Of a stretch of 64,000 nt of DNA, positions 1 through 60,600 are shown in pieces. Every line of letters starts with the position of its first letter. The stretch's first letter is position 1. This DNA comes from Trebouxia sp. TZW2008 (lineage: Eukaryota > Chlorophyta > Trebouxiophyceae > Trebouxiales > Trebouxiaceae), in contig BDIU01000083.1 in NCBI GenBank assembly GCA_002118135.1, positions 62,001-126,000 on the forward strand, given 5' to 3'. The translations under genes and the position numbers were made by a program. Under the pieces are notes generated by a model. The model did no database searches. It saw only the letters and a list, made by a program, of their open reading frames with translations, and was not told where the DNA came from.

Positions 1-544
1 AGCACAGCACCCTAGTGTCATTTTATCGCAGCAGAAATCCTCCTGAGAACCCTTGCATGCTGTTGCAGGGTGTGCTGTGAGGCAGCCATGGCCTGGCCTC
101 AGCATCATCACTTCAATGCAGCAGCACAGCACCCTAGTGTCATTTCAACGCAGCAGAAACCCTCCTCAGACCCCTTGAATGCTGTTGAAGGATACGGTGT
201 GAGGCAACCATGGCCCTAGCCTCAACAGCATCCCAAGACACTGCGTGTGCAGGCTATCAAGCCCTGCTCAAGCTGTCCCGCAGCTAACTCCACGACAACA
301 TTCCAATGCTGTACCTGTCCTACAGATATATACCAGTCATTCTGACACTCCTTGCATGCCTTTGCAGGGTACCGTGTGAGGCAGCCATGGCTCTAGCTTC
401 GACAGCCTCTCAAGAGACCAAGTACGCTGGCTATCAAGCCCTGCTCAAGCTGTCCTGCAGCTAATCCCACGACAACATTCCAATGCTGTACCTGTCCTAC
501 AGATCTACACCAGTCATTCTGACCCCCCTTGCATGCCTTTGCAG
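1..544 (+). repeat. Ghost-exon array upstream of the first TAF2 exon
   Basis: Three decayed copies of the intron end plus the 5' part of the exon that starts at 545. The copies begin near 68, 188 and 367. Each has a polypyrimidine stretch, a TTGCAG-like acceptor (TTGAAG in the second) and then a version of the codons for CEAAMALA. The last two are about 180 bp apart. The copy at 367 stays open for about 30 codons but ends in a stop near 463. The functional copy is taken to be the fourth, because only it runs on into the rest of the exon. Confidence 0.8.
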
Positions 545-3500
545 GATACGGTGTGAGGCAGCCATGGCTCTAGCTGCAACAGCCTCTCAAGAGACCGAGT
601 ATGCTGGCTATCAAGCCCTGCTCAAGCTATTCCGTAGCAGATTCCACAACAGCAGCACTTCCCAGTTGCTATCTCAAAGCGGTCAGAGCCTAGCAGGCTG
701 CAATGTGGGCGAGTACCTGGTCAACCAGGCCCTGCCCTTAGCCCTAGCCTCAGTCAGAGATGAAAAAGGCCATTCCATGCTGGAAGCAGCTGAGATGCTG
801 GTAAGGCTGTTGAGTTCCGCTAGTGCCCTCATGCTATTGGTGGTCCTGCACTCTATGGTGTGTAATGCCATGATGTGGGTCATGCTGCAAGGTCAGGGTT
901 TGCCTGGTCGCCCAGGCCCTGCATTTGGTCTTGGTGTTGATCAGAGATGAGAAGGGCTTATGCATGCCAGATGCAGCTGAGATGCTGCTAAGACTGCATG
1001 CTTCTGCTGTGACACCCATATGCATTTGGTGGCCATGCTGCAATGTGGATTATGCTCTGCAATGTGAAGGAGTACCTGGTCAACCAGGCCTTGCCCAAGG
1101 CGCTAGCATCAGCCACAGATGACCAGGGCTTTTCCATGCCAGAAGCAGCTGAAGTGCTGACGACACTTCAGCCTCCTGTCATTATGCTCATGCTGTTGGT
1201 GATCATTCTACAATACGGGCAAGTACATGATGAGCCAGACCCTGCCCTTGGACCTGGCATCAGTCAGAGATGACAGGGGCTTGTTCAAGTAGCCGAAAAT
1301 CATGCTGATGGTGCTCCATCCTGTTGTTTTTGATCCTCATGCAGTTGGTGGCTGCACAGGTGGACACGCTGCATGCGACTGACATTCCCCACAACAAACA
1401 GACAGCTGCTGTGTATACACATGTGGCCTGCGCTGGACTCTTTTCTGTGGCTGCGCAGGTGGACATGCTGCACAATTCAGATAAAAGTACAGAAAAGGCT
1501 AAGTTCATGCATTTCTACAGGCAAACTGTGGTCAACTTCATGTGTTGTGAATGCACAGGTGGACATGCTGCATCACACTGACAACAGAGGCAGCTTCTAT
1601 AATGATGACAGCATGCTGGCAGCAGCTTTAGAAGCCCTGGGCCGTCTCAGACTCCCAGACTCAAAGAGCCTCAAGCCAATTGTGGAGCAGCTGGACAGGT
1701 TTCTGGCAAGGGGAAGAGTTCTGCCGTCATACCATGGCATAGTTGCCCAAGCAGGGCTGAGGGCATTTGTGGAGCTGGCCTTGACCATGAGGGCTAATTC
1801 AGGATTCAAGACAAAGTTCAAGTCAGCATTTGTGTCAAAGTGAGTATTGCTGTGCACGCTAAGTCATGCTGTATGTGGCTGCATTGCCTTGAGCTGAGCT
1901 ATGCTGCACCTCATGACACTGGGGCGACATATCGTTGCATCGTTGTCTGCTCTGCCCTGCTCTGCTCTGCTTTGATTGCACTGTCCTGTGCTGTGCTGGC
2001 TAGGCTGCCTGTGCTGTGCTGTGCCGTGCCGTGCTGTGCTGTGCTGTGCTGTGCTGTGCTGTGCTGTGCTGTGCTGTGCTGTGCTGTGCTGTGCTGTGCT
2101 GTGCTGGGGCATGCAAGGCTGCAATGAGCTGGAGCGCCCTGCGTTGTTCACTTTTTTCTGACTTTGTGCTGAACTTGTGCTGAACTGCACTGCGCTGTGC
2201 AGGGCACCATTGGTGCTGCGCCTCACGTTGCTGTATGTCAATCCTGTTTGTATGTGCAGGGTGGCTGGCATATGCAGTGAGCACAGCCAGGAGCAGTGGC
2301 ACCCAGAGCTGCGCCGCACAGCCTATGACTGCCTGGTGCGCATGGCTGCAGCCCTGTCAGGCCTGGATGCTGCCATCAGCCTGTGCCTGGACGTTGTAGC
2401 CCATGAGTCTGCACCCCTTGTCAGGTGCTGGTGCTTGATCAGATCTCTATCAGCATGCTGCTGTCACATTGTTGCCATTAAGCCTGTGATTCTTGCCAGG
2501 TATTAGCAGCCCATGAGTCTGTTCCCCTTGTCAGGTGCTTGTGCTTCATCATCTCCCGGTTTGCGTGCTGCTGTCATACTGTTGCCGTCGAGCCTGTACA
2601 GTGACTTCTCTTTGTAATGATTGTTGTGTTTCTCAAGAAATTTGTCTTTATGTCGAATTGTCCTTACTCAGGGGTGCCACTGCAGTCAGAATGCAGTGAT
2701 AGGTTACTTCTTGCATTGTGTTTACAGTGAGCGTGTCCTCACATTGAGTTTCCTTAGAAAAAGGGGTTACTGTAATCCTTGTGAGGTCCTGGTGTCAAGG
2801 CAAATTTTTGTACCATATGCTGCTGATCTGTTTAGTTGTCCGCATCAAATGTTCTGTTGTTGAGTTAACAGAGGTTGATGGCCAGCAGTTTGTTGGAATG
2901 CTTCTGGCGATCTGTGCTTTGCATCTTGTCCTCCAGGCTTGAACCTCTGACAGATGCTGCAGCGTTGTGACTTCACCACCAACATCATCATCAACAAGTA
3001 CATGCTTGCTAAAGGTTCCGTATCCTGTGAGAGCATACTTCAACAGTGAACTGCCTCTGCACTCACGTAAAGGCTTTCGATGTCTGCTGTGTTGCCGTAC
3101 GGCTCGCTTCACAAATCTGCTATGATCATATGTCACAAGCTCATAATCCCATGCCATATGGTGAGCCTTGCCTCTGATTTGAGCTGAGAGCATTCTGCTT
3201 TCTGCTTGCATGCAATGGTCATTGCATACACATGTCCTATGACTTAATTGCGGACTGCTTGAGCAATTATGATTTTTGGCGTATGCTTGCAGGCTAGGCG
3301 TGATGGAAGATATTCAGCCCATTGTGCTTGAGGCCGTCAGTCACAGTTCTCAAACTCCACTCTCAGACCCCTTGCACCCCCCAGCCAACCCCCAGCAGAA
3401 CCCCCTTGACCCACCAACTATGGCCATAGCAACAGTTGAAGCCCAACAGCCCGCCCCTTCACCGCCCTTTGACTCATCCACTGCCCAAGTCTCCCAGGAA

Positions 3501-6500
3501 GTGTTGATCCGGATCCATGATCTATTCAACCAGCAGCATGATGTGAAGCTGCGCCACCTGGCGTTCATGCTTCTATCACGCCTTGGGAGTCTGCCACCCA
3601 CGCTGTATAGACCTGCTGAGGAGCCAGAAACTGCTGGGCCTCAGGGTATGCACTGTCAGCTCTAGCCAACACTTCTGGGCAATAGCACACCTCCCTGAGC
3701 TGACTGTTCTAGACAAGTGCCTGGAAAGGACTCAGAAGCTGCCACACACCCAAGTCAGTACTGCTCCTTTGATTTCTGGGATCTTGGGCATCAAGTCAGA
3801 GGACAAACAAGCAAAATGCTAGCTTGCAGAGGAGCCACAGACAGCTGGGCCTCAGGGTCTGCAACGTTGGCTTGAGTCAAAGACAACAGCGCATCGCGCC
3901 AGTACTTCAGCTGCCTCATTCAGATTGACAACATCTGCACAGAAGCAACATATCAATCTCATACATTTGTAGCAGTCCACATGGCGGGGACTGGCGCAGA
4001 GCTCACCAGTAGCCTACAGCCCACAAAACACTGCCAGGAGCAGTGGGCTTGCCTCAATGTGGGGCTCAAGCAAAACTGCTGGCTTAGCAGGAGATTTCAA
4101 CAACTTGCAACGACTATGAGCACATGCACTTGAGCAAGTCACACAATGCTGTGTGTTGCAGAACCCACGACCAGCATGCAGACCCACAACATAGTGCCGG
4201 CAGCAGTGGGCCCCGCCAAGTCGGGGGGCTGGCAGGGGGTCCCATCTGGAGCCCTGCCGTCTGCAGAGCCTTCCATGCAGGACCTTGAGGGTGAGCTCTC
4301 AATTGCAACACAAAAACAGGGCAACAAGGGCTTGCTTGCCGCAGGGCCATCACAGGCACTCACCTGCAACTTCCTGCATGGATGGCTTCACTGGTCTGCT
4401 TGCTGCTAAGTATTATACGCAGGATCTTGGATGTTTTTGCAAGCGCTTGCTTGCTGCTGAGCATTATATGCAGGTTCTTGGATGTTTTGTTGAAGTCTTG
4501 CTTGCTGCTGAGCCATTGAAAAAAGCCACCCGATCTGCCTTGCACTGTTGGCTTGCTCTACTTGCTGACAAAGCATATGCTGTGTGTTGCACCACTCATG
4601 CAAGACCTCGCAAGTGACCTCCAAGACTCCCTGCTGAGCCATCAGAGAAGTCACCTGTAGTGTGCTGCATTGCTGCGTGATGACAGCTGGATTGTCCATG
4701 AAAGATCCTGAGAAGTAAATCCTACCCTTGCCTGAGAAGGACCTTGCTTGCTGCTGCGGTCCCAATGCAAGACATTGCAGGTGACTTCATTGCTTGCTAA
4801 CAAGCTCATGCTGTCTGCTGAGCCCTCCATGCAGGCGCCTGAATGTCAGCTTGAGCACTTGTCTGCTGAGCCATCAGAGGCTTACCTAGATTGTCTTGCA
4901 TCATTGGTTTCAACAGCTGCTTTTCTGCTGCGGTCTCAATGCAAGACGCTGCAGGCAGATGCATTGCTTGCTAACAAGCTCATGCAGTCTGCTGAGCCCT
5001 CATGCAGGCGCTTGAGTGTTAGCTTGAGCACTTGTCTGCTGAGCCATCAGAGGTTTACCTACACTGTCTTGCATCATTGGTTTCACCAGCTTCTTTGCTG
5101 CTGAGCCATCTGTGCCAGACACTGCAGGTGACCTCATCAGGCTTGTCAACACAGCACATGCTATCTGCAGAGCCCTGCATTCAGGACTTGGAAATTGAAC
5201 TGAAGGATCACACCTAGCACTGCTGTCATCTCTTCCACTATCATCATAAACATTGCCGCTCTGGTTTTCATCGTCGGTATCAGCATTATCATCAGTGTTA
5301 CTGACGTCGGCAAGTTTGTACTTGTTACATCTCACTGCTGTGCTATGCATTTCGAGCCAACAAAGGCAGGCTAGACACTCTACGGCCAACACAATCCCTC
5401 TGGAGCGGAAGCAGTTCCCCAGGGCTTATGTTTTGACATACACAAACGAACCCATAAACACGATCGCCTGATCAATTTCTGAGGTAGAGAGTTACAGCAT
5501 ATCTCTTCCTTAACTGCTGATGCGTTTTCAATCAAAGTGCTGTCTGTCCAGAGGTGACTGGCAAGGAGGCTCCGAGGACAGATGCACCATCCAAACAGTC
5601 CCACCCCTGGCCTGAGCTCCCTCACCTCCAGCATACCTCCCAAACCGCGGCTCAGGGTCAACCCCAGCAGCAAATGCCTGCCTTGGGCATACCTGCTCCT
5701 CAGCCTGCTGTGCCTTCCAGGAAACGACCCAAGTCTGCGTCACCAGCCCCACTCAGTTTGCAGGTAATCCTGGTCTTAGGCCCACATTTCTTGTGGCACA
5801 AGACATCTGTGTAAGAACATGTTGAAGTGACAGGCATGCCCGTGCTAATGTCACTGTCTTGCGCTCCCTTTGTCGGTTGTTGAGCAGCACAGCAATCTGT
5901 CCTTCCATTGCAGCTGACATTGGTGTGACTGTGAAATGCACTCCGCGTACAAAGGCACTCTTCACCTTCGCAAATGGCTGTGTGGGGCTGGCCAACATAT
6001 CAGGCCCTTTTACAAATTTCGTGAGGCCAAACTCTGACGTGCATGGTGTACAGAAGTCAGGGGCTGTTGGCGGTCCATCCCCAGTGACAGTTGAGCAGCT
6101 GGAAGCTGTCATGAAGGGGGGCAGCCAGCAGCCCAAACAACGCATGGTCATTATCATCATCACTATCACTAACATCTTGTTACTGGTATTGTTGTCATCA
6201 TGGTCATCATTGTCATCCTGATCATCATCAATGTCACTGTCACAAGAGTCAGGGGCAGTTGGCAGTCCAGCCCCAGTGAAGGTCAAGCAGCTGGAAGCTA
6301 TCATTAAGGGAGGCAGGCAGCAGCCCAAGCAGCCCACTGTCAATATCATCATAACCACTACCATGACTTCATCGAATCATCATAACCATTGTCACCATCA
6401 GAATTGTCATCATTACCGTAGGAGTTGGGTGTTGGTGGGTGGTCCAGCCCCAATGACGGCAGAGGAGCTCGAGCTAGAGACCGTCGTGAAGGGAGACAGC

Positions 6501-10405: not shown

Positions 10406-13400
10406 CTGCATTGCAACAGAGCAGATGGTCCAAACAGCAAGTGTTTGCAAATTGTGCAAGTATACCGCCTGCCCAAGTAGGCACATGAATGTTTGTAGAT
10501 GCTGGTACATACTCCTATGCGCAGGACACCCTTCAAAACTTCCTGCACATTTAGGAACTTGGGATCACTGGGAAAACATTAAAAAATGTACAATGACAGG
10601 AAGCGCTCACGGATTCAAGCCAAGTAAGTCTGATGTTTGGGCAGTTGTGCAGATCACCTGCAGGTGGATGCAGAATACTCTACACACCATTACATGGGAG
10701 AAAGCATACACCATTATATGGAAGAAAGCATTTAAAGCCTGGCAAAGCCTCATCCTGACTATCAAAAGCAGAATGTAAATGCAGCCCATGGCATTTGCAC
10801 ATGATGCTTACATTTGCAAAGCATATGTAGGCTCAAAACGACTTTGTTGCATACTGCCATGCTTGAGATGCATGTCCAAACAATGGATGAGATGTTTGTT
10901 GAGCACTGGAAACCTGCAAGCTGGCATGTTGGAACACAAGTGTCACAAGAAAGGTGTCAAAAAGCTGCCATAGTTCTGCTGTCAATGCTTCTAAGGCCTC
11001 ATTCATTGTGTACACTCAATGCTGAGCCCAGCCTTCACAGGAAGTTAATTGCCCAATTGTAATGCTGACTTCATCTGAGACTCAAGTCGAGATCAACTTG
11101 TCACAGCTGTAGCACCAGCAGTCTAGAGCTTGAGTAAGTCCAAAGTCTCAAGTTCTGAATTCAGCGTAAATCATTGTCATCTGACGCTGAGAAGGGCATC
11201 TTGCAAAAAGCTGTAGCGGAATTTGAAGCCAGCATCCTGCGTTCTGGATGAAATGACTTTTTGGCCCTCCAGCACTACTGAGGCGCCCTCCCCCAGCATA
11301 GACTGCAAGCAGGAGCAACACGACTGCTCAGTACTTGCAGTCTGTGTTGGGGGATGGGGTAGGGTCAGCAGTAGGCTTGGATTTTGGGGTTTGGGGCAAG
11401 CATGCCATGGGTTGTGTATGTGATGTTGAGACATAGCTGATTTTTGAAAACGAAGCACCAACAACAATATGTACATTGGGGAAAAGGAAACAAAGCATTC
11501 TGAGCCTGAATGGCAGATGCATAAGGCAGGAGAGCAGGACTCTGGCCTGCTATCACATGCGAGCAACAGGCAGAGCTGACCTACAGTTGTGCCCAAGGAA
11601 AGGAACCAAAATAAGGGGCTGCACAAGGGATCAAGAGGCAGGAACGCTCTACAGTTGTGCCTAAAGGAAGCTGCATAAAGTGACAGAGAACCGCGTCAGA
11701 ACAGAAAACACAGAGCAAACCTCTATACACAAGTGTGAGACCTTGAAGTCTGACCTGCAGAGCGAACTCAGGTACTGGCAGCCAGGAGGGCCGCCCCAGG
11801 ACCCGCCCTAGGGAGCTGCACAGCTCGGACATCCGGACAGGGTTGGGCGCCGTGGCATTGTATGTGCCGTCAAACTCTTTGTTCTGCACAGCCTCGATGT
11901 ATAGGTTCACCAGGTCATCCCTGCAAAACATCACAGGACTTCACAACACTTATTGGCTTTGCATTGTGACACTCAACACATAATGCTATGGTGCACAGCT
12001 CGGGCATCCGGACAGCATTTGGCACCCTGGCATTGCATGTGCCGTCAAAGTGTTTGTTCTGCACAGCTTCAATGTTTAGGTTCACCAGGTCATCCCTGCA
12101 CAACATGCAAAACCTCAAGATTACACATTACTGGTGGGCTTGGACGCTGACAAAAACACAGTCTAGCACATGCATTAGGTGTGTATCGCACAGGCCTTGT
12201 CTTGCCAGGCCGTCTTGCTGGCTCTGCGTTATGATAATCATGCACAGTGCTACAGTGCTTCTGGAAACATAGCTCCTCCTTGATGCATGTTGAAGTGACA
12301 TCCATGACAGATCACTCCTGCACAGCTGTTTACATAAAAAAGCCTGGCAATGCCTGCACAGGATCAAAAACATTGATGGGGTTTTGAGTAAGTGTAAAAC
12401 ATTTCTTTTCAGTGTGGAGACTTGTAAACAGTTCTGTTACTTCTCAAAAGCAGTGTAACTTGCTGGCAGCAAATGCTGCGCAGACCCTACCCTTGACCTG
12501 TCAACAAAGAACAAAGTCGTGTCCAGTGCTCAACTGAAGCTGTGACTGTCAAAAGAAAAGTTCCAGTGTGTTGCGTCTTGGCATTGCGTTGTACCGTGTA
12601 GAAATTTGACACCAAATGCTATGCTGACCTTGCCTGAAACTTGTCATTGTTCAACACAAGTGCTGTGCAGTCCCAATCAAGCTGTAGTTGAAGAAAGAAG
12701 CATGAAAGCGGTGTCCATGCATGCTGCTGTGATGGCTCAAGCAGCTGATCTGGTAGCTGGTGCCGCAGCGTAGGCGTTTACTGAGTCACTGCTGACACAC
12801 AGCTATAAACACCAGACGATGCAATGTCCTGGTGAAATGTAGCTGACTCAAATGGAGAAATGGCAGCTCTTGAGTGCATTTGCAGAACAGGCTCCACCAT
12901 GTCTTCTTTGAGTGCAGGAGATGCAACAGGAAAGCTGCATTGCCTGCTGCAACAGTATGAGTGCAGAACACATGGCATCTCTTGCCTCAGCTGCCACTGC
13001 AGCATTTGTAAGTGTTAAGCTTGCAAAGGCAAGCAGCAGCGCACTGGCTTTCTGGACACAGGCAGAGAAACTGATGTTGTCCAGAATGTCTGATGTTGGA
13101 TAGTTCCGCATTCAGCACCACCTGCACTCTGTTCAGCCGCTGCAGACCTTCATCACAGCTCAAATGCCTCCCTGCTTTCTGCAATGTGAACATTTTCAGA
13201 CTGTGTTGCCACTTGAGACCTTGAATCAAGCTGGAACATCTGCTTCCGAATTTGATCTGCCACCAGTCAAACACCCTGACGCTCTTCTCACTGCAGTACT
13301 GTGTATTGTAAACATGCACAGACCGTCAGGCTGTTTGGCCCTGTGAAGCCTTTGTCACAGCTGGAATTCTTTCTCTCAGGCCAAGGCCGGTTTGAAACAA

Positions 13401-16400
13401 AACCCTATGAACATACACCACTGCAATACTGCATATTTGCGATCATAAACAAGCTGTTTGGTCACTTCAGGCCTTGATCCAAGCTGGCATATTTTCTGCC
13501 ACAATTGGTCTGTCATCAGGCAAAAGCCTGGGCAAAATGGCTCAACATGATGCTGATGCTACATGAGCAACATGCTGAACCATTTTGCCCAGGCTTTTGC
13601 CTGTTGGCAGACCAAATGTGGCAGAAACAATGCCAGCTTGATGCAGGCCTGAAATGGTCAAACAGCCTGTACATGATCACCATGAAAAGCACAGTGATCT
13701 CTCTGACAAAAGACTGCTTTTGTGACCAAGAACGCCTTGTATCAGGTGATGCTTGCCTGGAGGTGACTATGCAGAGAGAGAGAGAATAATGTTACATGCT
13801 TTAGCCAGCCAACAAGGCTGATCACATGTGCCACACTGTGGCAATGACTATATGTGCATGAAATTCAGGCAGTCTATGACATAGTGAAACACCCCAAAAT
13901 GATCATGTTGCGCAAAAAAAGCGCGCATGTTATAACCGCAGCTCTCAAACAACCCAGGGTACTTGGCCCGCACCCCAGCCAATGCTCCACATTCAAACAC
14001 TAAGTGCCCTTCATTGCCTAAGGCCCCAGAACCACACAGTGCAGTGATTGCTTTACAGTTGCACTGTCTTTACATCAAGCACGATCTTGCATCAAGGGTC
14101 CTTACAAGGTGAACTTGCCGCATTGCAGCACCAGGGCTCGCTGCGCAAGAAATAGCTTCCTTGAGTGGCTGAAGAATTTTCCCACAGCTTTGCAATAATC
14201 TTGCATGCCACAGTCAGCTGTGTGAGTCTCTTGATGCGGTTAAAGTTGCATTTGTGATGAAAGGTATCGAACAGGTTTGCAATAGTCTTATGTGACAAGC
14301 CACAGTCAGCTGTGTGAGTTTTTGGTGGCATTGTAAAGTTGCGTTTGCTATACCTAGCAGAGCAGAACAAATGCACAGACTGGCTTTCGTGACAAGACAA
14401 TTACTGCACGGCTGCTATGTCAAAAAGCACTAGTTGTTGCAGGGGTCACATTGCGACTGTCAAGCTGCAATCTAGCAGCACAGGAAAAGAATCTTGGTAA
14501 AATTGGACTGTGTCCCCAGCATGTAAAAGCACTGCCGACTTGCAATCTATGACACCTCTCAATGACACAAAGGTTGCCCATGTCAATTGCAGGCTGCACA
14601 CCAGGTGCCATTCATTGAAAGGGCTGACATGTAGATTCTGGGTGCGTTGCAGACCTGTCAGCGGCAGACAAATGTCCAGGGGCAGGCATCATCCAAGCCT
14701 GTATTGGCTGCGGCCGTCATCTAATTCATGCATTCTAGACGCATGCTAGACAGGCTTAGCAGGCCCAGCTAGATATGTACTGGCGCAATCAACTGTCCCC
14801 AAGCAGTTCGGTCCTGTGTTACCCTAAACCCTGAAAAGTGTGCATGAAGCCAGATGAGATCCTTGTGAACCGTTGTCTGCCAAGTGTCAGCAATCGACAC
14901 AATGCTTTCAGCATGCGCTCAAGCAGAGACTGCATTGACCTTTGATGCCAAGAAGACCAGTGCTGTCCAGTGTCAAGGGACCGCCGGCAAAGATCCTGAA
15001 CACAGGCAGCATCTGAAACTTTTTGAGACGCAACATTCAGCTTCAAACAGCATCTGAGCCTAATTTGGGAGCAATCTGTAGACTCAAAGCAGGTGTGAGT
15101 GAGCCTAGACAAGGACTGCACTGACCTGTGGAACCATGAGCCCCATTGTTGTTCAGTGCCCAAGGGACTGCTGGCAAAGATGCTGAATACAAGCAGCACC
15201 TGAGATTGTTTCAGACAGGACCCTCAGCCTCAAACAGCATCTGAGCCTTTATTTGGGTGCAATCTTGAGACTCAAGGCAGGTGCAAGTGAGCTCAGACAA
15301 GGACTGCACTGACTTGTGAATGCATGAGCACAGTTGTTGTCCAGTACCCAACGGCCCTCCAGCAAAGATAGTGAAAACAGGCAGCATTTTGGCCATAGCA
15401 CCGCCCTTTTTGCCACAACACAGTTCCAAAGTGAGGTCAGACAGAGACTGCATTGACCTGTGTATCTAGGAGCACCATTGCTGCCCAGTGCCCAAAGGCC
15501 CGCCCGCAAATATGTTGAACATTGGCTGCATCTTGACCGCACGCCATCTTCCTCGGCCAAAACACATCTCCAAAGTGAGAGCAGACAGAGACTGACCTGT
15601 GAATCCATGAGCACCATTGTTGCCCAGTGCCCAAAGGACCCCCCGCAAATATGTTGAACACCGGCAGCATCTTGGCCATTGCACCGCCCTCCTTGGCTAA
15701 AACAATGCCTGTGCGGATGATGACGGTCCTTTTGGTCTTGGCTTTTTTGGCAGCTGCCTCCCAATCTCTGCAAACCTCTGCCAGGTAGTCCTGCCCGCTG
15801 GTGCTGCTTTCATTGAAAGTCTGATTTTGGCTGTTGCCATAGAATCCTGCATGATGCATGTGTGATCACATCATGGTCTGATAGCATCTGTAAACTTCAC
15901 AAACAGATTTCTCGACAGGTGACTGTTGTTATTGCTGCTGTTCCTGTGGCAGCATGCGTTCTGGTGCTTGTCAATATGACTATTGTGCTATCTTGAGCAA
16001 CATGACCTGTGAAGCTTGCATGCTGCACGCAAGTCAACGAGACGCCGTTGGTGGCGCCAAAACTTGTGCTGAACGCCAGTGTGCTGATATTGACGCAGCA
16101 ACGACGTAGTTGCAACAGCCCTAAGACTACAATTGACTCTCGCTTCATCCCCAAACTCTGACATGATCACACATGGCCCAACTCCGACATGATCATACAT
16201 GCTTGGAGTGAGGGTCTCAATAGTGACGTATGCTAGAAAGGTGCCACATCGCTCACTTAAGTGCACATCTTCTCCTTGACTGTTCACTGTGCATACTTGG
16301 TGGAAAGGCTATGCAGAGGACAAGCATATGCAACATGTTTAATAGCCTGGCAAGGAGGCGTTGAAGCAGAACAACTGGTTGTTGCTTTGAGCTCTGGCAG

Positions 16401-18097: not shown

Positions 18098-18159
18098 GCC
18101 TGCTTGTCATGCGAGCATAGCGCAATCGCTGGCTGGTCAACTGGACTCGAGATAAAGAA

Positions 18160-48673: not shown

Positions 48674-51487
48674 TCAAGGACTAGGACTCTGGGGATCATA
48701 CGATGGAGACCTCGGAATGTAAACTGGTTCATATCGCCCATCATCATACTTTGCCCCGACACCCCCCTTTGGGACTACATAAACCCCAAAACAAGCAAGC
48801 TTTTTCCTAGAGAGGCCACTGTTCCAGGCCATATTCACAGGGCCTTCCTGAGGAGAAGCATCTTCAAGCTCAGTCAGGAAACTGTGTGTTTTACTGCTGG
48901 GGCTATAGCAAATGCTGAAGTGTCGATTTTTCAGGTCCATTTCGTCCAGAATTTGCACCATTGGCATAGATCCCCCCTGAACTGTATACGAAATGAGTTG
49001 CTGAACATAGCATGTCGCTGAATGCTCAACTTCGCGCCTGCCACGAAGATCTTCGCCGACAAACTGTACACGCCACGCGTCGCTACGCCCTGCAAAAGCA
49101 TTGTGCATTGCAAGAATGACAAATCAAAGCCCCAGCGTGTGTTCTCAAGAAAGGACAACAAAGAACAGTCTACGCTGTCAGGCATCACTTCAACGGGAGC
49201 TCCTGTGAGCGGAAGCAGCCAAGACTGCACAAAAGGCACGACATTTCCCTTATGCATGCCAAAGAGCCCTATACATAACAGTTGGGGACAATCCATCACT
49301 TCTGTGTGCACCTAGCTGGGTCATGCAACCTCACGCGTCAGTGAAAGTTGCTGATGCTATGATGGCAATCGTGCCATTCTGAATGAGTGCACGTGTCATA
49401 TGTACAGAGTGGCTTAAACATGCACAGGCAGGCCTCCAAGTCAGTTCCTTGATGACTATACATACCTTCGAAGGCCTTTGAGCCTAACTAGCATGCGTGT
49501 CGAGATACAGAGAGACGTATACTGATGATGACGATGATGCCAAAGATCGACTAGCAGCTGCTTTGCACCCACCTCTCTCGATCTCAAGCATCTGGTTTGA
49601 TTTCCATCCTGTTGGGAGCTCAATCAGAGATACATCACGATCAAGCCACTGCAATGCTGCTGTTGTCTGTGACTCCTGTACAGCTGTTGTGCGCATGGTT
49701 GACCATTTCCCCTGATTGCAGATCTGTGCAAGCAAAAGCCGCGAGGCGCCTTCGCCGTTCTCTGAGGTGGGACAATTGATGACTTGATGAAATAGCTCCA
49801 TTGATACAGGGCAGAGCCTGCCTAGCTGAAGATACTCTGTCAGCAAGGGATTGCTCTGTGTAAGTCCAGCTGCACAGAGCATGTCAAAAATCTGCAGCAC
49901 AAACACAAACTATGTGTTACAATCAGATTGTCTTTTCAGGAGCACAACCACATGCAAAGTTGCAGCTCAGCTTGTCAAGTGGATGATCAGGATGAGTGTG
50001 CCTAATCTATCTATCAGTGTACAAGCAGAGGGACAAATGGTACAGTATAATCTTGTCTTGTTAAGCACTTGATATGCGGACTGCTGTGAAGTCAATGCAG
50101 TTGGAAAGCAAGCACTGCGTTGTCAAATCAAGAACTGTACTGTGGCTACATTGATATTTATCTGAGTAAGGACAATTCAATGCAAGGACAATTTTTTGGA
50201 TAATCAAAGCAGTTGTTACAAGGTCAAGTCAGTGGGACCGGTCCACAAGGCACACCTGTAGCTCACATAGGGAACCACACTTCTGCCTGTCAAGCGCCTC
50301 ATGGCAGAGCGAAACTGGCAGGTGGCACTTCTCAAACAGCAGACAGTTGAAGAGAACAGGCAAGATGGTCATTGTCTCCTTCGTCCACACTTGACGAGCA
50401 TAGCGCATCAGCAGGCGCCGAGCAGCATCTTCGAGCAGCAGTCGGTCAAATAGCAACAAGACTTGCAGCGCCTGCTGCGGAGAAAGCTTCAAGTCCAGCA
50501 GGTGGTCAATGCAGGCTGCTTCCACAATGTCAACCTGCAGCATTGAGAAATGAGCTGAAGTGATTTACTGACGGGAAGAAGGCTTCAAGTCTAGCAGGTA
50601 GTTAATGCAAGCTGCTTTCATGATATCAACTGCAGCATTCAGCACAGAGAAGTGAGCTTCATGCGCCCAGGCGATTGAGATGAGCAATGAAAGTGTGCAC
50701 AATGTGAAATTGCAGCAACCGGCAGGGTGAAAGTGAGCTGCATGCCCCCAGGCAGTTGAGCTGAGCATGCACACTTCAGCACAATCTCAGCTGCAGACAG
50801 CCTCAGATGTATTTGACACACTAGCTGAGGCGCATACTTGCTTGCATTGACTACTAGGACACATACAAGCTGAGCATGCCTTGGTTACAGTTGTGCTTTG
50901 ATGCAATCTTGCTCAAGACAATTCTGCTCAACAACCGAGTATGCTGCCTGTACCTGGATGGAGTTGGCAAGGACTAGCATGTGCTCCACGTCGTCCTCAA
51001 GCTCGATGCTGCCGCTGTAGAGCGCTTCCACGAGCTTGAAAACAACGTGCCTCGGCGTACAGACCGGCAATACGGTGTTCAAGCCGGTGGTCTGCATCCC
51101 GGTCTGCCGCAGACGCGCTGCTCCCCATTTGCTGTGTGCAGCGAGCATCTCGATGGAGATACCAACAAACTGCTCAGGCTGAGAGACGTCGCCAACGAGG
51201 CGTGCTGCGCAGATTGCGGCGTTGTCTTGCTGCAGCTGCCAAACTTGCAACATCTGAGGGAACGGCAGCCGGTGCTCGTCCAAGCGTCGCGTGCTGCTTG
51301 ACGCCGTATGGTGGTCCAACTGCAGTGTTGGCTGCAGATGCTCTTGCCGAACCTGGCATCCGACTGGCTGTTCGACGAGTGCGGACCCTCGTGAATCGGT
51401 CGTAGGTAGGTTGGGTGGGCAAGGGTGCACGTTTGCTGCGTCCTCTGCGTTCGGATTTTCTACATCTTCATGTCTTGGCCGCTTCAT
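48674..51487 (-). CDS. BTB/POZ-BACK domain protein
   Basis: Probable substrate adaptor of a cullin-3 ubiquitin ligase. Exons on the minus strand 51487-50954, 50534-50256, 49891-49573 and 49089-48674 agree in phase; 515 residues. Start chosen at ATG 51487 (MKRPRHEDVENPNAED); the frame extends to 51529 but begins with TTG. Residues 90-180 carry the BTB features: GISIEMLAAHSKWGAARL, CTPRHVVFKLVEALYSGSIE and VEHMLVLANSIQ. Exons 2 and 3 continue as a BACK-like helical region (AACIDHLLDLKLSPQQALQV, LLEDAARRLLMRYARQVW). The C-terminal exon (YVQQLISYTVQGGS..., ending PSYDPQSPSP) is less certain in fold and is joined by phase only. Its 5' end is 114 bases from the 3' end of the NEK gene, so the two are tightly packed. 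Confidence 0.72.
49462..49500 (-). repeat. Dispersed repeat family 1, fragment
   Basis: TACCTTCGAAGGCCTTTGAGCC then TAACTAGCATGCGTGTCGA, a weak match to the family core. Lies in BTB intron 49090-49572. Confidence 0.35.
50150..50205 (-). repeat. Dispersed repeat family 2, fragment
   Basis: TGAGTAAGGACAATTCAATG and CAAGGACAATTTTTTGGA match the reverse of the TTGTCCTTACTCA block. In BTB intron 49892-50255. Confidence 0.4.
50570..50780 (-). repeat. Ghost copy of BTB exon 50534 and a local direct repeat
   Basis: 50575-50640 repeats the acceptor and first codons of the next exon in gene orientation, reading VDIMKAACINYLLDLKPS without a stop. 50640-50775 then holds two imperfect copies of GTGAGCTKCATGCSCCCAGG with a shared GTTGAGMTGAGCA. 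Confidence 0.85.
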
Positions 51488-51601
51488 GACGCTGTGCTGT
51501 TCCAAGCAGAGACGGCACTTGCGTGACAAAGCTATGCAGCAAAGTCGAGTTTTGCCCGTAACGCTTTGTCTGCGAGCGTTACGTCAGGGCGCGTTCAAAA
51601 T

Positions 51602-54600
51602 TCACTGCTCAGCTTGCATGACCTCTTCCGACACAATAAGCTGATGCACAAGCTGAAGAAATGGCATTCGCTCTGGCCCAAGCAATTCTGCTAATTCTGC
51701 TGCCACCTCCTCTTCTTCCTCATCATGCGTTGTGGGTATGCTCTCCAATCTTCGATAAACTCTGCACAAGCCAGACGGCAGAATCTGCTCATGATCTTTG
51801 AGGAATACAGCATGCAAACAAATCTGTCACGATCAGCTTCAAATTTCCTGTCATGATCAGCACGCAACATGACAACAAACATTGACAGATGATCACACGA
51901 CCATGACTGACCACACCTTGCTGATTTTAACCAGAGCCCAATTGCGTATTGCAATCTGATGCATGCAATATCTACAGCAAGCTGCAGACACTGTGTACCA
52001 TGATGCTTGCGGCAGAAAACCTCACAGGGGCAGTGCACGGTCAAATCACCCAATGCATGGTCAAACCCTAAGCATTCACGCTGATGCAACAAAGCCCTGT
52101 CAGGAAACAACAAGAGTGCGCCTTACTTCATGAACACATCAAAACCCAGTCTCTGCTCCAGAAGCACCCGCAAAGCCTCCACTCTGTGAGCCATGCTGGC
52201 CTGAGGGCCCACGCCTAAATCTATCTCCTCACCATCCAGCATGAACTTGCCTGCTTGACCCTGCACATTCAGGAACCATAATGCGTGCATAGTATCTCCA
52301 TTCTGACAGTCTCTTTACAGTGTCAGAGCTTTGCATGTGCACCAGACCGCACAGCACAATCCTACTGGCCTGAGGCCCCACGCCCAAATCTATCTCCTCA
52401 CCATTCAGCATGAACTTGCCTGCTTGATCCTGCACATACTGTCTCAAGCTGAATTTCAACAGTTGTTACTCATGCATGCTGCTTGTATGCTGATGATCTT
52501 GTCACCATTCTGCATGCACTTGCTTGCTTGACCCTGCAGATGCTTTACACAGCCAACTCAACAGCCACAGCACAAGCATACTTCTTGTTCGCTGGCCTTC
52601 TTGTTGCCACCCCTTTGGACTACATACCAAAACAGACTGCAAATCATGCCTCACTTGCTGGCCCCAGCACCTGCGCACAGACTGCATCTTGAAACGCATG
52701 CACAAGGGGCTGACGGTGGTGCAGCAGCCCCTCTTGGGGCATCCACTCAAGTGTATGCAGCTATGCCATTGATACATCACAGGCATCACAGTCTGGCTTA
52801 CTATGATGGGGCCAGAAGCATGAGCAAGCAGCACTTTGCAAGCGAGAAGTGACTGTGTAAGATGACCCACCTTGTCGCCAAAATCGCTGTCCCCACTGCT
52901 TGATGATGCATCATCTCCGTCTAGGACCTGCATGAAAGCATCAGACTTGTGAAGGGCGTCATTCAAATGCGCATAAATGCAATGATACAATTTGCTCAAG
53001 GGATGTGCACAGCTTTGCCTATGTAATGTTGACCTTGGATTCATGTCATCACAACTTGACGCCTCATTATGCCAAGTCAATCTGACATGATTCTCAGAAA
53101 GCCGTTACAATCTGCCAAGAGGCATCCTGCAAACACTATATGGGGTTTTCAGCAAGAGTGACCAATGCTGATGCTAACATCAGCTTGCAGACTGGGTTGA
53201 GAGGTGGAGTTCTTTAGTGTACCTGCTGCATCTCTTGGACCATCTGCCCATACTCTGCCTCTTCTTCTGCTGCAGCCCTAGCATTCAGCTTAGGAATGGC
53301 CTGCAGCTCAGAAACGCCCTCCAGGCTGCCCCCACTGCCCTGATCCTGCCCTGCTGCACTCTGCAAAGCTGCAATCTTGGGATTCCGCTGTTCCCTAGGC
53401 ATGGTTGCAGGGATGACAAACTCTACTTGATGCAGCATTTCTGGTCCCCCAGGAGATGCTGGTTGCTGCAAGGGCTGCTGCCCTGGGGCTGCTGGCAACT
53501 GCCCTGCTCCTGCAGGGGCTGGTACAGGCAGCTCCACACGGCCAGGGGCGTTTTGCTGCAGAGCTGAGGGCGCTTCTGATGGGGCTGCTGCAATAGCCCT
53601 GCCCAGGTCTGAGATTGCCCCAGCTGGCTGCAGCGCTGCATGCTGTGCTGAGGTTTGAACCGCTGCAGGTCTTGCAGCTGCTGCACTAGCTGCTGGGGCT
53701 TGCTCATTTGGCCCTGCCCTGGCTGAGGCTGGTTGAGCCCTGGGAGGCAAGCCATGCCTTGGAACCCCAGCAGCAGGGTTGGGTCTAGGGGGGCTCTGGA
53801 TGGGGTCAAGGCTGGGCTGGGGGGGTGAGTGGGGCCTGGAAGGGGGTCTTGAAGGTGGTCTGGAAGGCGGTCTTGCATGGGGCGGTGACTGATGCCGTGA
53901 AGCTGGACGGGAAGCTGGCTGGGAGTGGGGGGGCGAGGGGGGTCTGGAAGTGGGGCGAGAGGGGGGCCGTGAGCGTGGCGGCTGCCCTGTGATCTGCTGC
54001 CTGTTGCGCTCAGCAGCAGCTCGCATCTCTTCCCAGATTTGCCTCCTGGACTCAAACTAGGACACTTACTTCACAAACCCAGATAGAAATGAAGAAGGTA
54101 ACTGGAACAGAAAATTGTTGAAAAGTGTGATGTCGTTGGGTGAGGGGCTTCATTTACACTGCAGCCCCTCAAGCAGAGGCATGTAAATAGCCATTGAGCG
54201 CCACAAGCTAGTCTTGCTTTCAATGTAGCAACAGAGCTTCCCCCTGATGTGCACGCATTGACAATGTCCCTTTTGATACATTCCAAGCAGAAGCACAACA
54301 ACTGAGCAATCCTCACTTCAAGAATCCACCTCCTGGAACCCGGGAACAGTTTCTAAAGCAGATCTCCAGGCTTGACGTGAGGTGTGCTTGCAGAGCTTGC
54401 CATTGAATGCATGCAAGCTGTCCTCACAAGTGTCACTGGAAGCAGATCACTTGCCTCTCCTCTGCTGTTGGGTCTATTGCAGCACCCCCAGGGGGTTGCC
54501 TGGGGCTTGGGGAGGGCTCCCTGGACAATGGGGGTGAAGGGGCAGCTGCGGCCAAACGCCCTTCCTCAAATGCCCTGGTAGGCATAGGACCAGGACTAGG

Positions 54601-57600
54601 GTTTGGGCCAGAGGGTTCTGCCACCCCATAGTCCCCACGTACTGCACGCCTGTTGCGGTCTGCTGCTTCTCGCATCTCATTGTAGATTTGCCTCCTGGAC
54701 ATGCCAAGGAATGACTGGTAGGTGACGCCAAGTGATACTTTATAACACAAATTAGACACAGGTCAAGGATTTAGAGACGGTCTGAGCATGTGATGCTGTT
54801 GGCGTAGCACTTCATGTTCGAAGTGATGCACGCAAATGCAGCATGATGCTGTCAGTGATGATAGTGATCACAATCGTGAAATTCATGACAACAGCAGCAA
54901 TGGTGATGATGGTGATGATGAATTCATGTTGCCCGACTATCAGTACCAACACAGCGGCATGGTGCACAATGCTGACCTTTGCTCAGCTGTAGGGCCGCCC
55001 CCCTGCTGACCCCCCTCCAGACCCATGCCGGGTCTGCCAACTGGCCGTGATTCAGCAGGTCTTGACTCAACTGGCTGACTGTACCTGCGCTCCCCGCTGG
55101 CAGGTCTGCCTGGCAGGGGCCGCGGGGCTGAGGGCCCCGGGGCAGCGGCTACCAGCCCTTGGGAAGGCCTCCTAGCTGCTGCAAAGGCAGATTTGGTGGC
55201 ATTTATATTTTCCTCCGGATGGCTATCTGTCATACATGAGCATACAGACATACTGAGCGTGGTTTGACACTACATGCTTACAAGCAGCAAATTCAAGATG
55301 ATTATGGCTGAATTGCAGGTCGACTCTTTTGCCGCTTGTCAGCACAGGCATGATGGGATTGCAGTGTCTTGTGAGACGCTGTCAAATGCATGCAAAGATC
55401 GTCGCACAGCCTGTTGCCAGCATCAGGTGCATTCCTGCAGAGTTGCCTTGGTTCTGTGACTACAAAAACAACACTCTTAAAGTGTTGCTTTGTTGCCACA
55501 CCAATTTGGTCTGAGCATCATTTTGAAGGGGCCCACAAAGAAGTAGCTTACAAACCTGGGGCGTAGATAGGGGGTGCGTCCAAGGGAGAGGGGTCAGAAG
55601 GGGGGCCTGCCCTCTCCCCCTCAACCTGTCTGCGGTTACGAAAAGCCTCCATCTGGCGCTGCTGCCACTCCTGCTTTGCCGCACGCATGACTTCCCTATC
55701 CTTGTCCCTTTCTGCTTCCTATGAGTACCACAAGAGCATAAGCCATTTAGTGTGACCATGTCCTCCAGATGTGTGTCAGAGCCAATTTGGCTCTGAGATT
55801 CAATGACGAAGAGCTTGCCCTGTTCCTGGCAAGAATGATTCAAGCTGCTTTTATCCACAGCAGAATGTTTTGTTACCAACAAAATGCATCATCAGTGATA
55901 TGGTAGACAAAGTTCTGTGCTCAGGCAGAAGCTGATGACTGCCAAGCTACATTCGATGAGCTACGCTGATGCCTATCTTCTTTGTCAATGTATGCTGCTG
56001 CATTGTCAATGAATTGACTGATTGTTGAAGCTATACTAGACTCGCAAAGCTCTGTAGTGACTGGGTCACTTGTTGATTGTGAGCTTGCAACAGACGTGGC
56101 GCTAGTCATGATCCTCATCAATATAAGTCAAATGATTCAGGTCAGCATGGAACGAAACTGGTCAAAGAAAGTCAATTTGCTGGAGGACATACCTAGCTGG
56201 GCCTGCTGAGCCTGTCTAGCATGCGTTTTGAACAAATGAAGTGATGAATGAATGACCCATGGCTCACCCGACTCTGCCTGTCAGCACGCTTTTGCTGCAT
56301 CTCAGCCTCAGCTTGTTGCCTGACTGCTTGTTCAGCTGCCTTGCGCTGCGCTGCCAGCCGTGCAGCACCTTCCATCTCTTGCCTCTTCTTCTGCTCCTTA
56401 GCCAGCTTCAGCCTGGCTTCCTCCAGCTGCTTTGCTTCCTGCCAAGCATACCAACAAAAGTCAGACAAAATGTGCATGTTTAGGAAATGCATGGGCAGGT
56501 CAAGGAGGCTTGCATCAAGATCCATTGTTCAAGCCTTTGTCTGCTTGTTGATAGAATTCAAACAAGCAGACAAAGGTTGCACAATCTCAGTGATATTGTA
56601 GTGTGGCTGCAGTTTCTGCCCAAACGTACAGGCATCAAACGAAGGTTCACAGTCCTTTACGAGACATGCCAATGAGCAAGCTCAATGACCAAGCGAGTGT
56701 GTAGCTTGCCACACACACCAGAAATACATGATTACACACTAACCATACGCAAAAAGCATGTTGTCATGTAGCAATGGACATTGCAAGTGACGTACCAAAG
56801 CCAAGCGCTTGCGCTCTTGCTCCAACTGCAACCTCTCCTGCTGACGCTGTGCCTGCTGTGCTAAAAGGGCTTTCTGCCTTTGAACTTGCGCAGCATGAGC
56901 GTCAGCTACCACCTTAGCTGCTGAGGGGTAATTCCCCTGACCCACTGGCGAAACCCTGCCGCCGATTGGCGATACCCTGCCGCCAGGGGAGATTCTGCCA
57001 TCAGCAGAGGGTCTGGGTGATAGCCTATTGGGCCCTGGCAAGGGTCTCGGGGAAACCCTGTCGCCAATTGGGGAAACCCTGCCACCAATTGGAGGAACCC
57101 TGGGGCCGTCATTGGAGGGCCGGGGTGACGCACGGACAGGTGGGCTGGGTTGGGCTGCCCCTGGGGGTCTTGGACTCCATTTGCTGGCTGGTGCCCTGCA
57201 ATCATATTCACTAACACTGATGGGCAATTTATGACACATGTGGACGTCGTTAGCAAACGGACGAATGCTTCACCATCCAAACATCGTGTGCTTGAGACAG
57301 CTACACAGCATGGGCATAAGCAGCCGTACTTCATAAGCATTGGCACCCAGGTAGCATCAGACCAGTCAGCTGAGTACTGCTGAAGAAGATGTAAAATGCA
57401 AGCAGCAAATACGGTGCTGAAGAGCAAGAGTCATTGTTACACTTGACTCACTTGGCAACTGACCTGGGAGCTGCTGAGGCAGGTGGGGATGGCACTGGGC
57501 GGGCCCGGGGGGCACCCCCTGCTGGCAGCGCAGGGGTCGGCCTTGGACCACCCACTGCGCCAGCTGGCCGAGGTCCCTGCACAACAATTGAGCATGGGTT

Positions 57601-60600
57601 CACTTGAAAGTTACTCGATGCCACAAGTTTCAATGGTCATGTCTATGGAACTCAAGTCAAGGGTTGCATTTCGCAGTCATTGAACAAATCTATGCTTGCT
57701 GAATGTGTGACTCGACATTGTCTGTACCATCCCCTCATTAGGTCCTCAAGACAGTGATCATCATTGATTGATCAATTGAATTCTTCCTGAAGTTCTGTGG
57801 CGAACAATGTGCTTGCAGACAGCCAACAAGCACATGAGAAAAAGCAAAAGGAATTGAGACTGCTGCATAACGAGCAGTCCAACTGCAGCTTGCTGGCATC
57901 TGCATTGGCATTACATACTGCAGCATTGCTTTGACATTACGGTCACATCTCATTGCAGCCATTATGACAAGACGGCAGTGACTCACCACAGGACCAGGCT
58001 TGCCAGCTGCTGCAGCTGCTGCTGCTGCGCTGGGGAGGGGGGCCTTGCTGACCCCAGCACCCGCCTTGTGGATTACTGTGTGGCTGAACTCGGCTGCCCT
58101 GCAACAAATTTTGTCATGGGTGTGAAAGCCATGACGGCTGACAATGGCTGTTGAGGTGATGATAGGCGACTATACACAGCTTTGCGCAATGCAGGCTATG
58201 TGCCTGGTGGGTGCCAGATAAGAACGCAGAAGGAGGCACATGGAACAGTCATAGCACAATTGAGCAAAAATAAGGCAGATTGGCTCAAGAACAAAGGGCT
58301 GTAGTTGTCACGCAGATTTCACAGCATCATGTATTCAGGACTGCAATTGATGTAACAGCACAGATCTCATTCAAGTGCTGTTAAGAGATGCACACAGTGC
58401 AGCAGCAGATTTCTGCAGTGTTGTTACCAAGCTTGAGCCAGAATCCGCCAACAGTCGGACTTGCATACAAATGCACTCAAAAAGCAAATACACTTATCTC
58501 AACGCACCCAAAATCACCTCATCCTCAAACATTCACACAAACATGATTTTGGCCCAAACTATACAAAAGCATAAGGGAAAAGCACTGACCTCACAGTTGC
58601 AGAAAGGAACTTGGCTATGCGCTCCTGCAAGACTGGCAGCTTCAGCACTTCATTCACAGTCGGCCGCCGCTTGGGATCTGTGCGCAGCGTCATGTCCACC
58701 AAGTCTTTCAGACCCTTGGAATATGTTGAGGGAATCGGCAAATAGCTGCCCCGCACTATCTACAGCAGAATAACTGTTATGCAATGCAGAAGAGGCAGTG
58801 TGCTTGTACCAAGCGCTGTCTGCACTCTCTGTGAATTTTATTCACCAGGTTCTGAGCTGCACAGCTGATGGTCAGTACCTACAGCAGCACAAGTCAGCGC
58901 AACGCAATACAATGCAATGCACCAGACCGATGGCAGTATGCTAGTTGCGTTTTCTAGAGTCTGAGCTCCTCACTATCTAAAGCAAAATCAAGTCATGCAG
59001 CGCAAGACCGGCAACATATTTGTGCCAAGCGCTGCTTGTTGATTGACATTGAATTCTGCTGTATTTGGAAACATCAAGACCTAGTTGATGCTAAGTGTCC
59101 TCAGCAGAGCAGCCATCATGCAAATCAAGCCATGTAGATACACATGGCGCTGCTCAGTGAAAGGCCCATCCTATGCAACACCAGCACATTGCATCCACGA
59201 GCACAAAGGGCCAAATGCTGTCAGCGCTCTATGCAACAATGATGCTTTCATGCTCCTTCATGCCTCTGGTGGCACAGCTCTACTGTTGTATCAAGCAAGA
59301 CGTCAACTACAGGTGCTGGTGTATCAAGTGCAGGTAGGTTGTGCTTGTTCAAGCACAAACATCCTGTCTAACATGCAAGTGGAGCAAGGCATCACCTTTG
59401 TCGCTAGCTGACGCATGTTAGGCGCATCAAAGGGATGTCTCAGGGTTGCCATCTCGTATAGCACACAGCCCAAGGACCACACATCACTCTGCAATGCAAG
59501 CCAGTATCAACAATGCAAGCACTTTGTGCACACAAATGTGAGCATGGATGCATTTGCAAGCTGCGCCCAAAGGAAGATGTGCTTCATGATATCGGCCTTT
59601 TGTAGCTGAGAATGGGGAGTTCTCATGCATCATGATACAAGCATGTATATAGCAGCCTGGCAAGACTAGGCGTGTGTCATATGCAGACATTGATGCTGCT
59701 CAGCATGATGGTCACTATAATTGTTCACAGACCGCCCCAGCAGGTGCATGCCTGCGGTGCGCACCTTCGCATTGTACCCTCTGTTCTGGCAGATCTCAGG
59801 ACTTAGGTAATACGGCGTCCCAACTCCTGTTTTTGCCAGCTGCATGGTGCTGCTCAGAACCTTGGACACACCAAAGTCACCCAACTTGAGCAACCCACCA
59901 GCTGACATGAACACATTCTGAGTCTTGATGTCCCTGCATACAGTCAGCACTACTCAAGCTAGCATCAGGAATCAACACTTGCCATTTGAGTCTGATACAG
60001 CAGAATGAGGAAAGGGTTTGTAGGTGATTGGACGGTGCAGCCTGCAATATCTGAATCCCAGCATGCATGCATGGATGTCAGATATTGTGTGCCAGGCAAT
60101 GTGTGCTGGTGACACGGCTGGCAAGATTCTTGGTCTACTTGGCACAGATTTGAACCACGCTCTGATCATGCCTCTCAGATGACAGGCTGAGAGGCACACC
60201 ATGTGGAGCATTTGGCATTGGCACAATAGCAAGTTCTGCCAGGCCATTTTACCTGTGTAAGATCTTGCGATCATGAACATGCTTCAAGCCCAAACATAAT
60301 TGCACAAACCAGTCCAGCAACACTGCTTCCGGCAAGGTTGCTCCATTTCTCTTCTTCAAGGCATTTGCCAGATCACCTGCAAATGGATCGTGACATCTAC
60401 TCCAAACTTGAATCCAACATGCATCCAGCTGGTTTGCTGCCTGCATATGTGTAGCTTACCCTCTGAGCAGTAGTCCATCAAAATACACAGCTTTCCAGCT
60501 GTAACAAAAGCCTCCTTGCAGCTGACCACATTCGGGTGATGAAGCGCTTGCAGCACCTGGAACGGTGTGAGCTTGAGAACAATTGCATTAGCAGGAGTCG

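Follow-up and report, generated by a model that had tools for sequence, protein, structure and literature searches.

Local tandem copies of exon edges in Trebouxia introns: a genome-wide and mostly passive pattern that leaves one asymmetry unexplained

The window, the whole stretch of 64,000 nucleotides analysed here, comprises positions 62001–126000 of contig BDIU01000083.1 in an assembly of 68.5 Mb and 527 contigs. Its source is a lichen-type green alga; the window proteins are nearest to Trebouxia among the named matches, with BCAT at 88% to a protein of Trebouxia sp. C0009, TRM1 at 86% to one of Trebouxia sp. C0010, and PRL1 at 87% to one of Trebouxia sp. C0009. When eight partial window proteins were searched, Pfam agreed with TAF2 (PF25577), BCAT (PF01063), TRM1 (PF02005), an epimerase with DUF1731, a JmjC/Cupin_8 protein, a WD40 protein and a protein kinase; a single partial protein from the putative BTB gene matched no Pfam family. 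The gene labels NEK and GC1 were assigned by the first-pass annotation from sequence alone.

That annotation described, at 19 listed exon edges, repeated copies of the edge in the introns (here called ghosts). The main sample for examining them was 264 kb, made up of the window and 20 stretches of 10 kb on other contigs (21 sequences); four further loci (82 exon edges) were fetched later and counted separately, and the tally of repeat pairs by locus covers 24 sampled loci. Exons were predicted with a small hidden Markov gene finder, trained on the window and the 20 stretches of the same genome alone, which converged on CAG/GTAAG donors and TGCAG/G acceptors (slash, splice site). Given no edges beforehand, it placed 15 of the 19 listed edges exactly, moved three (20858 to 20861, 41765 to 41755 and 1559 to 1521) and missed 30884; edges 20858, 30884 and 41765 are supported by tblastn with Trebouxia proteins. 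The PRL1 edge is 41755 in the 64-ghost flank-class and codon-position sets and 41765 in the analysis of 98 edge pairs and after. Predicted exons that resemble ghosts (11 of 310) were excluded from the later exon set, and six homology-based exon corrections are included in the 142-unit count, the 19-edge test and the comparison of intron lengths. The edge test compared 60 exon-edge bases with the adjoining 1 kb at a local score of at least 34. The features of the window are as follows.

191–250 and 370–427, plus strand: two acceptor-edge ghosts of the exon starting at 545, TAF2-like gene (TRF period 177)
545–800, plus strand: predicted live exon with ghosts on both sides (gene finder, edge test)
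941–987 and 1100–1159, plus strand: two donor-edge ghosts of the exon ending at 800 (edge test)
4809–4835 and 4983–5016, plus strand: two donor-edge ghosts of the exon ending at 4290, with the nearer ghost lying about 550 bp downstream (period-173 array)
6055–6113, 6246–6304 and 6440–6473, plus strand: three acceptor-edge ghosts of the exon starting at 6601 (edge test)
12037–12095, minus strand: acceptor-edge ghost of exon 11755–11920, DUF1731/epimerase gene (edge test, domains)
15458–15517, 15315–15369, 15126–15185 and 14940–14994, minus strand: four donor-edge ghosts of exon 15597–15846 (edge test)
20726–20767, plus strand: BCAT, acceptor-edge ghost of the exon starting at 20858 (edge test; exon by tblastn)
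21567–21616, plus strand: BCAT, acceptor-edge ghost of the exon starting at 21709 (edge test)
21709–22035, plus strand: BCAT live exon, covered from 21835 on by the spliced protein P0024
22192–22251 and 22362–22417, plus strand: BCAT, two donor-edge ghosts of the exon ending at 22035 (absent from P0024)
24182–24238, 24344–24400 and 24510–24567, plus strand: BCAT, three acceptor-edge ghosts of the exon starting at 24679 (absent from P0024)
24679–24886, plus strand: BCAT live exon flanked on either side by ghost arrays; P0024 joins it to the neighbouring exons
24961–25019, 25343–25397 and 25503–25560, plus strand: BCAT, donor-edge ghosts of the exon ending at 24886 (absent from P0024)
25080–25127, plus strand: BCAT, additional donor-edge ghost of the exon ending at 24886 (tblastn; absent from P0024)
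29842–29897 and 30124–30175, plus strand: TRM1, two donor-edge ghosts of exon 29476–29697 (edge test)
30338–30396, 30644–30702 and 30765–30816, plus strand: TRM1, three acceptor-edge ghosts of the exon starting at 30884 (exon by tblastn)
31943–31985, plus strand: TRM1, acceptor-edge ghost of the exon starting at 32113 (edge test)
32354–32393 and 32523–32563, plus strand: TRM1, two donor-edge ghosts of the exon ending at 32298 (edge test)
33642–33717, plus strand: TRM1, acceptor-edge ghost of the exon starting at 33797 (sharp class: exon half 94% alike, intron flank without clear homology)
39376–39407, plus strand: acceptor-edge ghost of the exon starting at 39494, JmjC gene (edge test)
41848–41907, plus strand: PRL1, donor-edge ghost of the exon ending at 41765, 95–96% alike (edge test)
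42781–43155, no strand: purely noncoding tandem array of period 66, a comparison case away from exon edges
43743–43800, plus strand: PRL1, donor-edge ghost of the exon ending at 43671 (edge test)
46060–46112 and 46178–46237, plus strand: PRL1, two donor-edge ghosts of the exon ending at 45992 (edge test)
50577–50630, minus strand: acceptor-edge ghost of exon 50256–50534 (edge test)
52370–52427 and 52496–52533, minus strand: two acceptor-edge ghosts of exon 52127–52260 (downstream of kinase exons)

Repeats of other kinds also occur in the window. An interspersed repeat of about 100 bp is present in both orientations at 14717–14828, 17380–17478, 23103–23213, 32864–32963, 35331–35371 and 56184–56247, all six copies between predicted exons; a genome search with 17380–17478 returned the query itself and 39 others at 81–91% among the 40 scored of 756 candidates, and the family could be a SINE, a MITE or an introner. 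A 238-bp near-palindrome at 13441–13678 is 84% self-complementary and matches that place alone, on both strands, in a genome search. Simple repeats include a perfect CATTA pentanucleotide array of 12.6 copies in a BCAT intron (22640–22702), a CA-rich array between two TRM1 exons (34562–34740), and 21-bp and 33-bp tandem repeats at 35462–35660 in the predicted exon 35418–35720, an alanine-rich stretch after TRM1.

The copies of exon edges in introns are real. Partial copies in the adjoining intron were found for 18 of the 19 listed edges, with 1–3 copies each at 76–97% identity, and AG or GT stands at the true site in all 19; one of the three copies at edge 545 is an additional exact match of 17 bp. 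At edge 1559 no copy reached a local score of 34 when 60 exon-edge bases were compared with the adjoining 1 kb; starting from the gene-finder edge 1521, a 46-bp match (81%, offset 201) that spans 1559 was found. The minus-strand edges 11920, 15597, 50534 and 52260, picked because copies were already known there, pass the test too. Random window positions gave matches in 40 of 400 trials, because arrays occur away from exon edges as well.

Across the 21 sequences, a copy lies in the adjoining intron at 81 of 552 exon edges vs. 0 of 1,656 control pairings, a count which, like the flank-class, codon-position and indel counts below, still includes ghost-like exons; the copies are distributed over 17 of the 21 sequences, at 26 of 134 edges inside the window and 55 of 418 outside it. 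With ghost-like exons excluded, 121 ghosts fall on 76 of 562 junctions. The later four loci have a copy at 5 of 82 edges (control, 0 of 246) and 25 direct vs. 0 inverted local pairs. Self-alignment, which the first-pass annotation had proposed as a check, places the copies far above chance: local repeat pairs at offsets of 30–600 number 215 direct vs. 2 inverted in 264 kb, and shuffled sequence (210 kb) yields 0 direct pairs. Within the window, self-alignment gives 65 direct pairs less than 1.5 kb apart, 4 direct pairs at greater distance and 7 inverted pairs, of which three are short-range. The pattern is genome-wide; as set out below, it is mostly passive and includes one unexplained asymmetry. 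Local direct pairs occur in 23 of the 24 sampled loci at uneven density, with 25 pairs in one stretch (L003). Variation from locus to locus is strong, and another 10-kb stretch (L016) has zero local direct pairs at the threshold used.

Pair offsets in the 264 kb concentrate at 60–230, with a second hump at 260–380; tandem units (offsets 60–260) have a median of 155.5 bp and a 5–95% range of 82–224. The 142 distinct units comprise 72 junction units (exactly one copy overlaps an exon), 58 purely noncoding units and 12 others. This tally of junction-spanning against noncoding duplications also shows that the process, which had been described at splice junctions, is not limited to introns and junctions, since some noncoding units lie in intergenic-looking stretches; unit midpoints per 10 kb number 8.1 in introns, 3.2–4.3 in intergenic-looking stretches and 1.6 in exons. 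Random placement of units gives 10,017 one-junction vs. 24,260 noncoding placements, compared with the 72 vs. 58 observed. The excess of junction units arises partly because exon parts should remain recognisable longer, and also from the larger number of partial alignments among junction units (35 of 72 aligned over <75% of their length vs. 10 of 58 noncoding units); the longer visibility of exon parts may not account for all of it.

The 215 direct pairs divide into 94 noncoding pairs, two groups (51 and 43) in which the exon-edge copy lies on the adjoining side, and a single pair with an edge copy on the wrong side; the others involve exon interiors (10), whole exons (4), sequence within an exon (7) or exons touched at both ends (5). 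The strict polarity claimed in the first pass, with acceptor-edge copies upstream and donor-edge copies downstream of the true exon, therefore stands as a description (94 of 95 edge pairs on the adjoining side; copies at 65 of 432 edges on the adjoining side and 1 of 432 on the far side), with a weaker contrast in the later loci (5 of 82 vs. 2 of 82). It is not extra evidence for a mechanism, because tandem geometry forces it: of the edge copies, the live one is by definition whichever remains attached to the body of the exon, and after a tandem duplication this can only be the last acceptor or the first donor.

Evidence on splicing comes from one gene. P0024 is 100% identical to the BCAT draft over the 75% covered, and we take it to derive from a spliced transcript, a point on which the source label of its contig is silent, because that contig is transcript-sized (1,701 bp) and the exons that P0024 joins span 4.4 kb in the window (21835–26237). 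None of the BCAT ghosts inside the part covered by P0024 is present in this same-species product, whose extent leaves out edges 20858 and 21709.

Ghosts differ from their exons at all three codon positions. Mismatch at positions 1, 2 and 3 is 0.133, 0.112 and 0.221 in 26 ghosts with a homologous flank (flank mismatch, 0.239) and 0.142, 0.112 and 0.251 in 29 ghosts with no homologous flank; a second data cut gives 0.11–0.16, 0.09–0.12 and 0.21–0.27. Such a pattern is to be expected if changes accumulate at every position of a ghost but chiefly at third positions of the live exon. Few indels preserve the frame (4 of 17, 6 of 34 and 0 of 2 in three flank classes), some BCAT ghosts contain stops, and in arrays with at least two ghosts similarity to the live exon averages 0.81–0.82, compared with 0.70–0.75 between ghosts. 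On average, the ghosts look like neutral relics beside a constrained exon.

Young copies are scarce. Of the noncoding and junction units, 85 align over at least 75% of their length; among these, 0 are <3% diverged, 2 are at 3–6% and 4 at 6–9%, and the mode lies at 18–24%; the 8 units of the other class aligned to that extent are all >12% diverged. These ages do not support the standing process of intron growth that had been suggested in the first pass: a steady process would fill the young bins, and empty bins imply an old burst or young copies merged in the assembly, either of which fits the data better.

The explanation that we favour, at a probability of roughly 80% for the whole, is neutral tandem duplication, in which units are copied, the copy joined to the exon stays live and the other decays as a ghost. 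Nuclear stretches of about 80–225 bp (median about 155) would be copied in tandem at many sites in the genome, both in introns and between genes and more rarely in exons. For a unit that straddles a splice junction, the copy still attached to the body of the exon would remain live, and the other would become part of the intron and decay neutrally as a ghost exon edge. The spliceosome would take the outermost site and skip the ghosts, though their AG or GT is often intact; the skipped sites suggest exon definition. The tandem mechanism at the DNA level, the size limit and the splicing rule are what we infer from these patterns. That only the exon-joined copy of a junction-spanning duplication is functional, as first proposed, is supported by ghosts that are neutral on average and by the ghost-free P0024.

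Duplication followed by decay does not account for everything: its prediction of neutral decay holds on average, but exon halves outlast intron halves beyond what it predicts. Of 64 anchored ghosts, 26 have a clearly homologous intron flank, and in 29, mainly acceptors, the exon half is still 73–94% alike and the flank lacks clear homology. Of 98 edge pairs, some of which are not independent, 39 have a homologous block that extends at most 12 bp into the intron, including 11 of the 20 pairs with at least 86% identity; examples in which similarity stops at the splice site are 33797, L008 4048 and L010 3623. A held-out test, which avoids the bias of searching with exons, found ghosts with exon bases 1–40 and scored them on other bases: exon bases 41–80 are retained in 47 of 71 and intron bases 13–52 in 29 of 71 (McNemar P 0.005), made up of 19 with both, 28 with exon only, 10 with flank only and 14 with neither. 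A simulation of tandem duplication and decay (400 cases) tilts the opposite way, with 269 both, 33 exon only, 89 flank only and 9 neither. The excess lies in acceptors (exon 28 vs. flank 11 of 34), not in donors (19 vs. 18 of 37). In 63 of 91 ghosts, flank similarity is lower than the 5th percentile of the model, a figure overstated by exon identities that are biased upwards in local alignments. The excess of junction units over random placement and the far-side copies at 2 of 82 edges in the later loci also count against the simple model. Simple duplication and decay does not yield exon halves that look younger than intron halves, above all in acceptors. Sharp ghosts, whose flanks lack clear homology, and wide ghosts have a similar range of spacings, so we think that sharp ghosts began as ordinary units and then had the exon half refreshed or the flank lost.

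Refreshing bounded by the junction, with the live exon repeatedly overwriting old ghosts by gene conversion or templated patch repair, is a possible cause, though we would not expect it to prove the right one. It would fit the mismatch of sharp ghosts (0.09–0.13 at codon positions 1 and 2, about 0.24 at position 3), as young as in ghosts with intact flanks despite unclear flank homology, and the shared spacing range, by which both kinds look born as tandem units. Among 57 ghosts with no clear flank homology, a weak residual flank similarity survives when controls are matched by edge type (mean z 0.50, s.e. 0.17); a separate test, with a control that mixed acceptors and donors, likewise gave a flank residual (P 2e-5). 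In a three-copy donor array (L010 3284–3756), where ghost homology stops 5 bp beyond the donor, the far ghost (offset 338, 88%) is nearer to the live exon than the near ghost (offset 168–170, 76%), as if overwritten. Unit identity is, however, just mildly patchy (median variance ratio 1.34 in noncoding and 1.25 in junction units; P<0.05 in 10 of 57 and 7 of 70, respectively), and conversion should ignore edge type, yet donor ghosts have no exon excess.

Equally tentative is selection against competing acceptors, under which an upstream ghost acceptor would be dangerous and the survivors would have lost the branch point and pyrimidine region by deletion, leaving AG and the exon copy with no flank homology. 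The restriction of the asymmetry to acceptors favours it, as does the state of the sites: among acceptor ghosts, 22 of the 23 sharp, 15 of the 19 wide and 6 of the 7 intermediate ones keep an intact AG, and among donor ghosts GT is intact in 11 of 18 sharp, 10 of 15 wide and 8 of 10 intermediate ones. Where flank homology is lacking, the sample contains no other match to the true flank in 22 of 29 cases and none to the ghost flank in 27 of 29. Selection would nevertheless require frequent large deletions ending near the AG, with residual similarity extending about 16 bp at most, and sharp donor ghosts occur as well (18). An exon-internal duplication in which the spacer is diverged exon was rejected: spacers are barely similar to the continuing exon (P 0.048), with 0 of 21 above the 99th control percentile. 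It is conceivable, if somewhat doubtful, that live exon edges rewrite their own ghosts, or that copying into ghosts is bounded by the splice junction, while the unrelated flanks age.

The three other accounts concern the origin of the copies themselves. That ghosts are functional duplicated (alternative) exons is improbable: many keep AG or GT and score almost as well as real sites, most of all at acceptors, and some keep open frames (e.g., 21574–22497), but P0024 lacks ghosts (for BCAT only, over the part it covers), and mismatches at all codon positions together with mostly frame-breaking indels reject coding alternative exons on average. Introner-like or other mobile insertions with target duplications of exon sequence are more improbable still; in sharp cases the spacer that separates a ghost from its exon bears no relation to the ghost flank, as insertion would have it, yet spacing follows the tandem range, and the three segments searched genome-wide (33715–33796, 24582–24678 and 33500–33640) match themselves alone (3 of 3; strongly diverged relatives could escape). 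An assembly artefact is hardly credible, since the lack of units <3% diverged would suit collapsed identical copies, but aligned copies differ by about 4–35%, artefactual duplicates would be near identical, and the pairs recur in nearly every sampled locus.

On the reading of neutral tandem duplication, about one exon edge in seven (81 of 552) lies beside look-alikes that would give a shorter intron, which provides a natural test of how splice sites are chosen; BCAT, the sole gene with a same-species product, uses the outer site. Median intron length is 664 bp where a unit is present (n=80) and 374 bp where none is (n=188), a comparison in which longer introns also offer more room, and the units are a possible route to longer introns without transposons. 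Ghost, exon and flank decay at separable rates, which offers a clock. If rewriting or junction-bounded copying were true, intron sequence would be fed from neighbouring exons, and the splice junction would be a real boundary for DNA change in this genome.

In plants, repair of paired nicks or staggered breaks produces short tandem duplications. The Trebouxia copies resemble these in being direct, adjacent and tens to hundreds of bp long, and a break-repair origin might be guessed at. Introners add intron sequence in eukaryotes including green algae and are one family in many genes, whereas the Trebouxia copies each derive from the neighbouring exon (PMC9860276). In intron gain of the type described by Rogers, as summarised in a later paper, an exon piece containing AGGT is duplicated (PMC4974935; Drosophila cases in PMC2891723); tandem duplication likewise provides splice signals beside exon sequence, but the Trebouxia copies straddle existing junctions. 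In a term search of the Trebouxia A48 genome paper (PMC12712428), the word "tandem" occurs 0 times and "intron" once. The precedent is a published single case, the potato RdRp gene, in which a boundary-crossing tandem duplication runs from the 3′ part of an intron into the 5′ part of the exon that follows, and a second, of 83 bp, lies inside an intron (Ma, Lan and Niu 2016, PMC4974935). The Trebouxia copies are similarly direct, adjacent (215 vs. 2 inverted) and border-crossing (94 of 215 pairs). In potato the duplication led to a new intron and a new exon piece (PMC4974935), unlike in Trebouxia BCAT, the one gene with a known product, where the duplicated edge was absorbed into the existing intron; and against that single potato case (PMC4974935) stand 142 units in 264 kb of Trebouxia, genome-wide.
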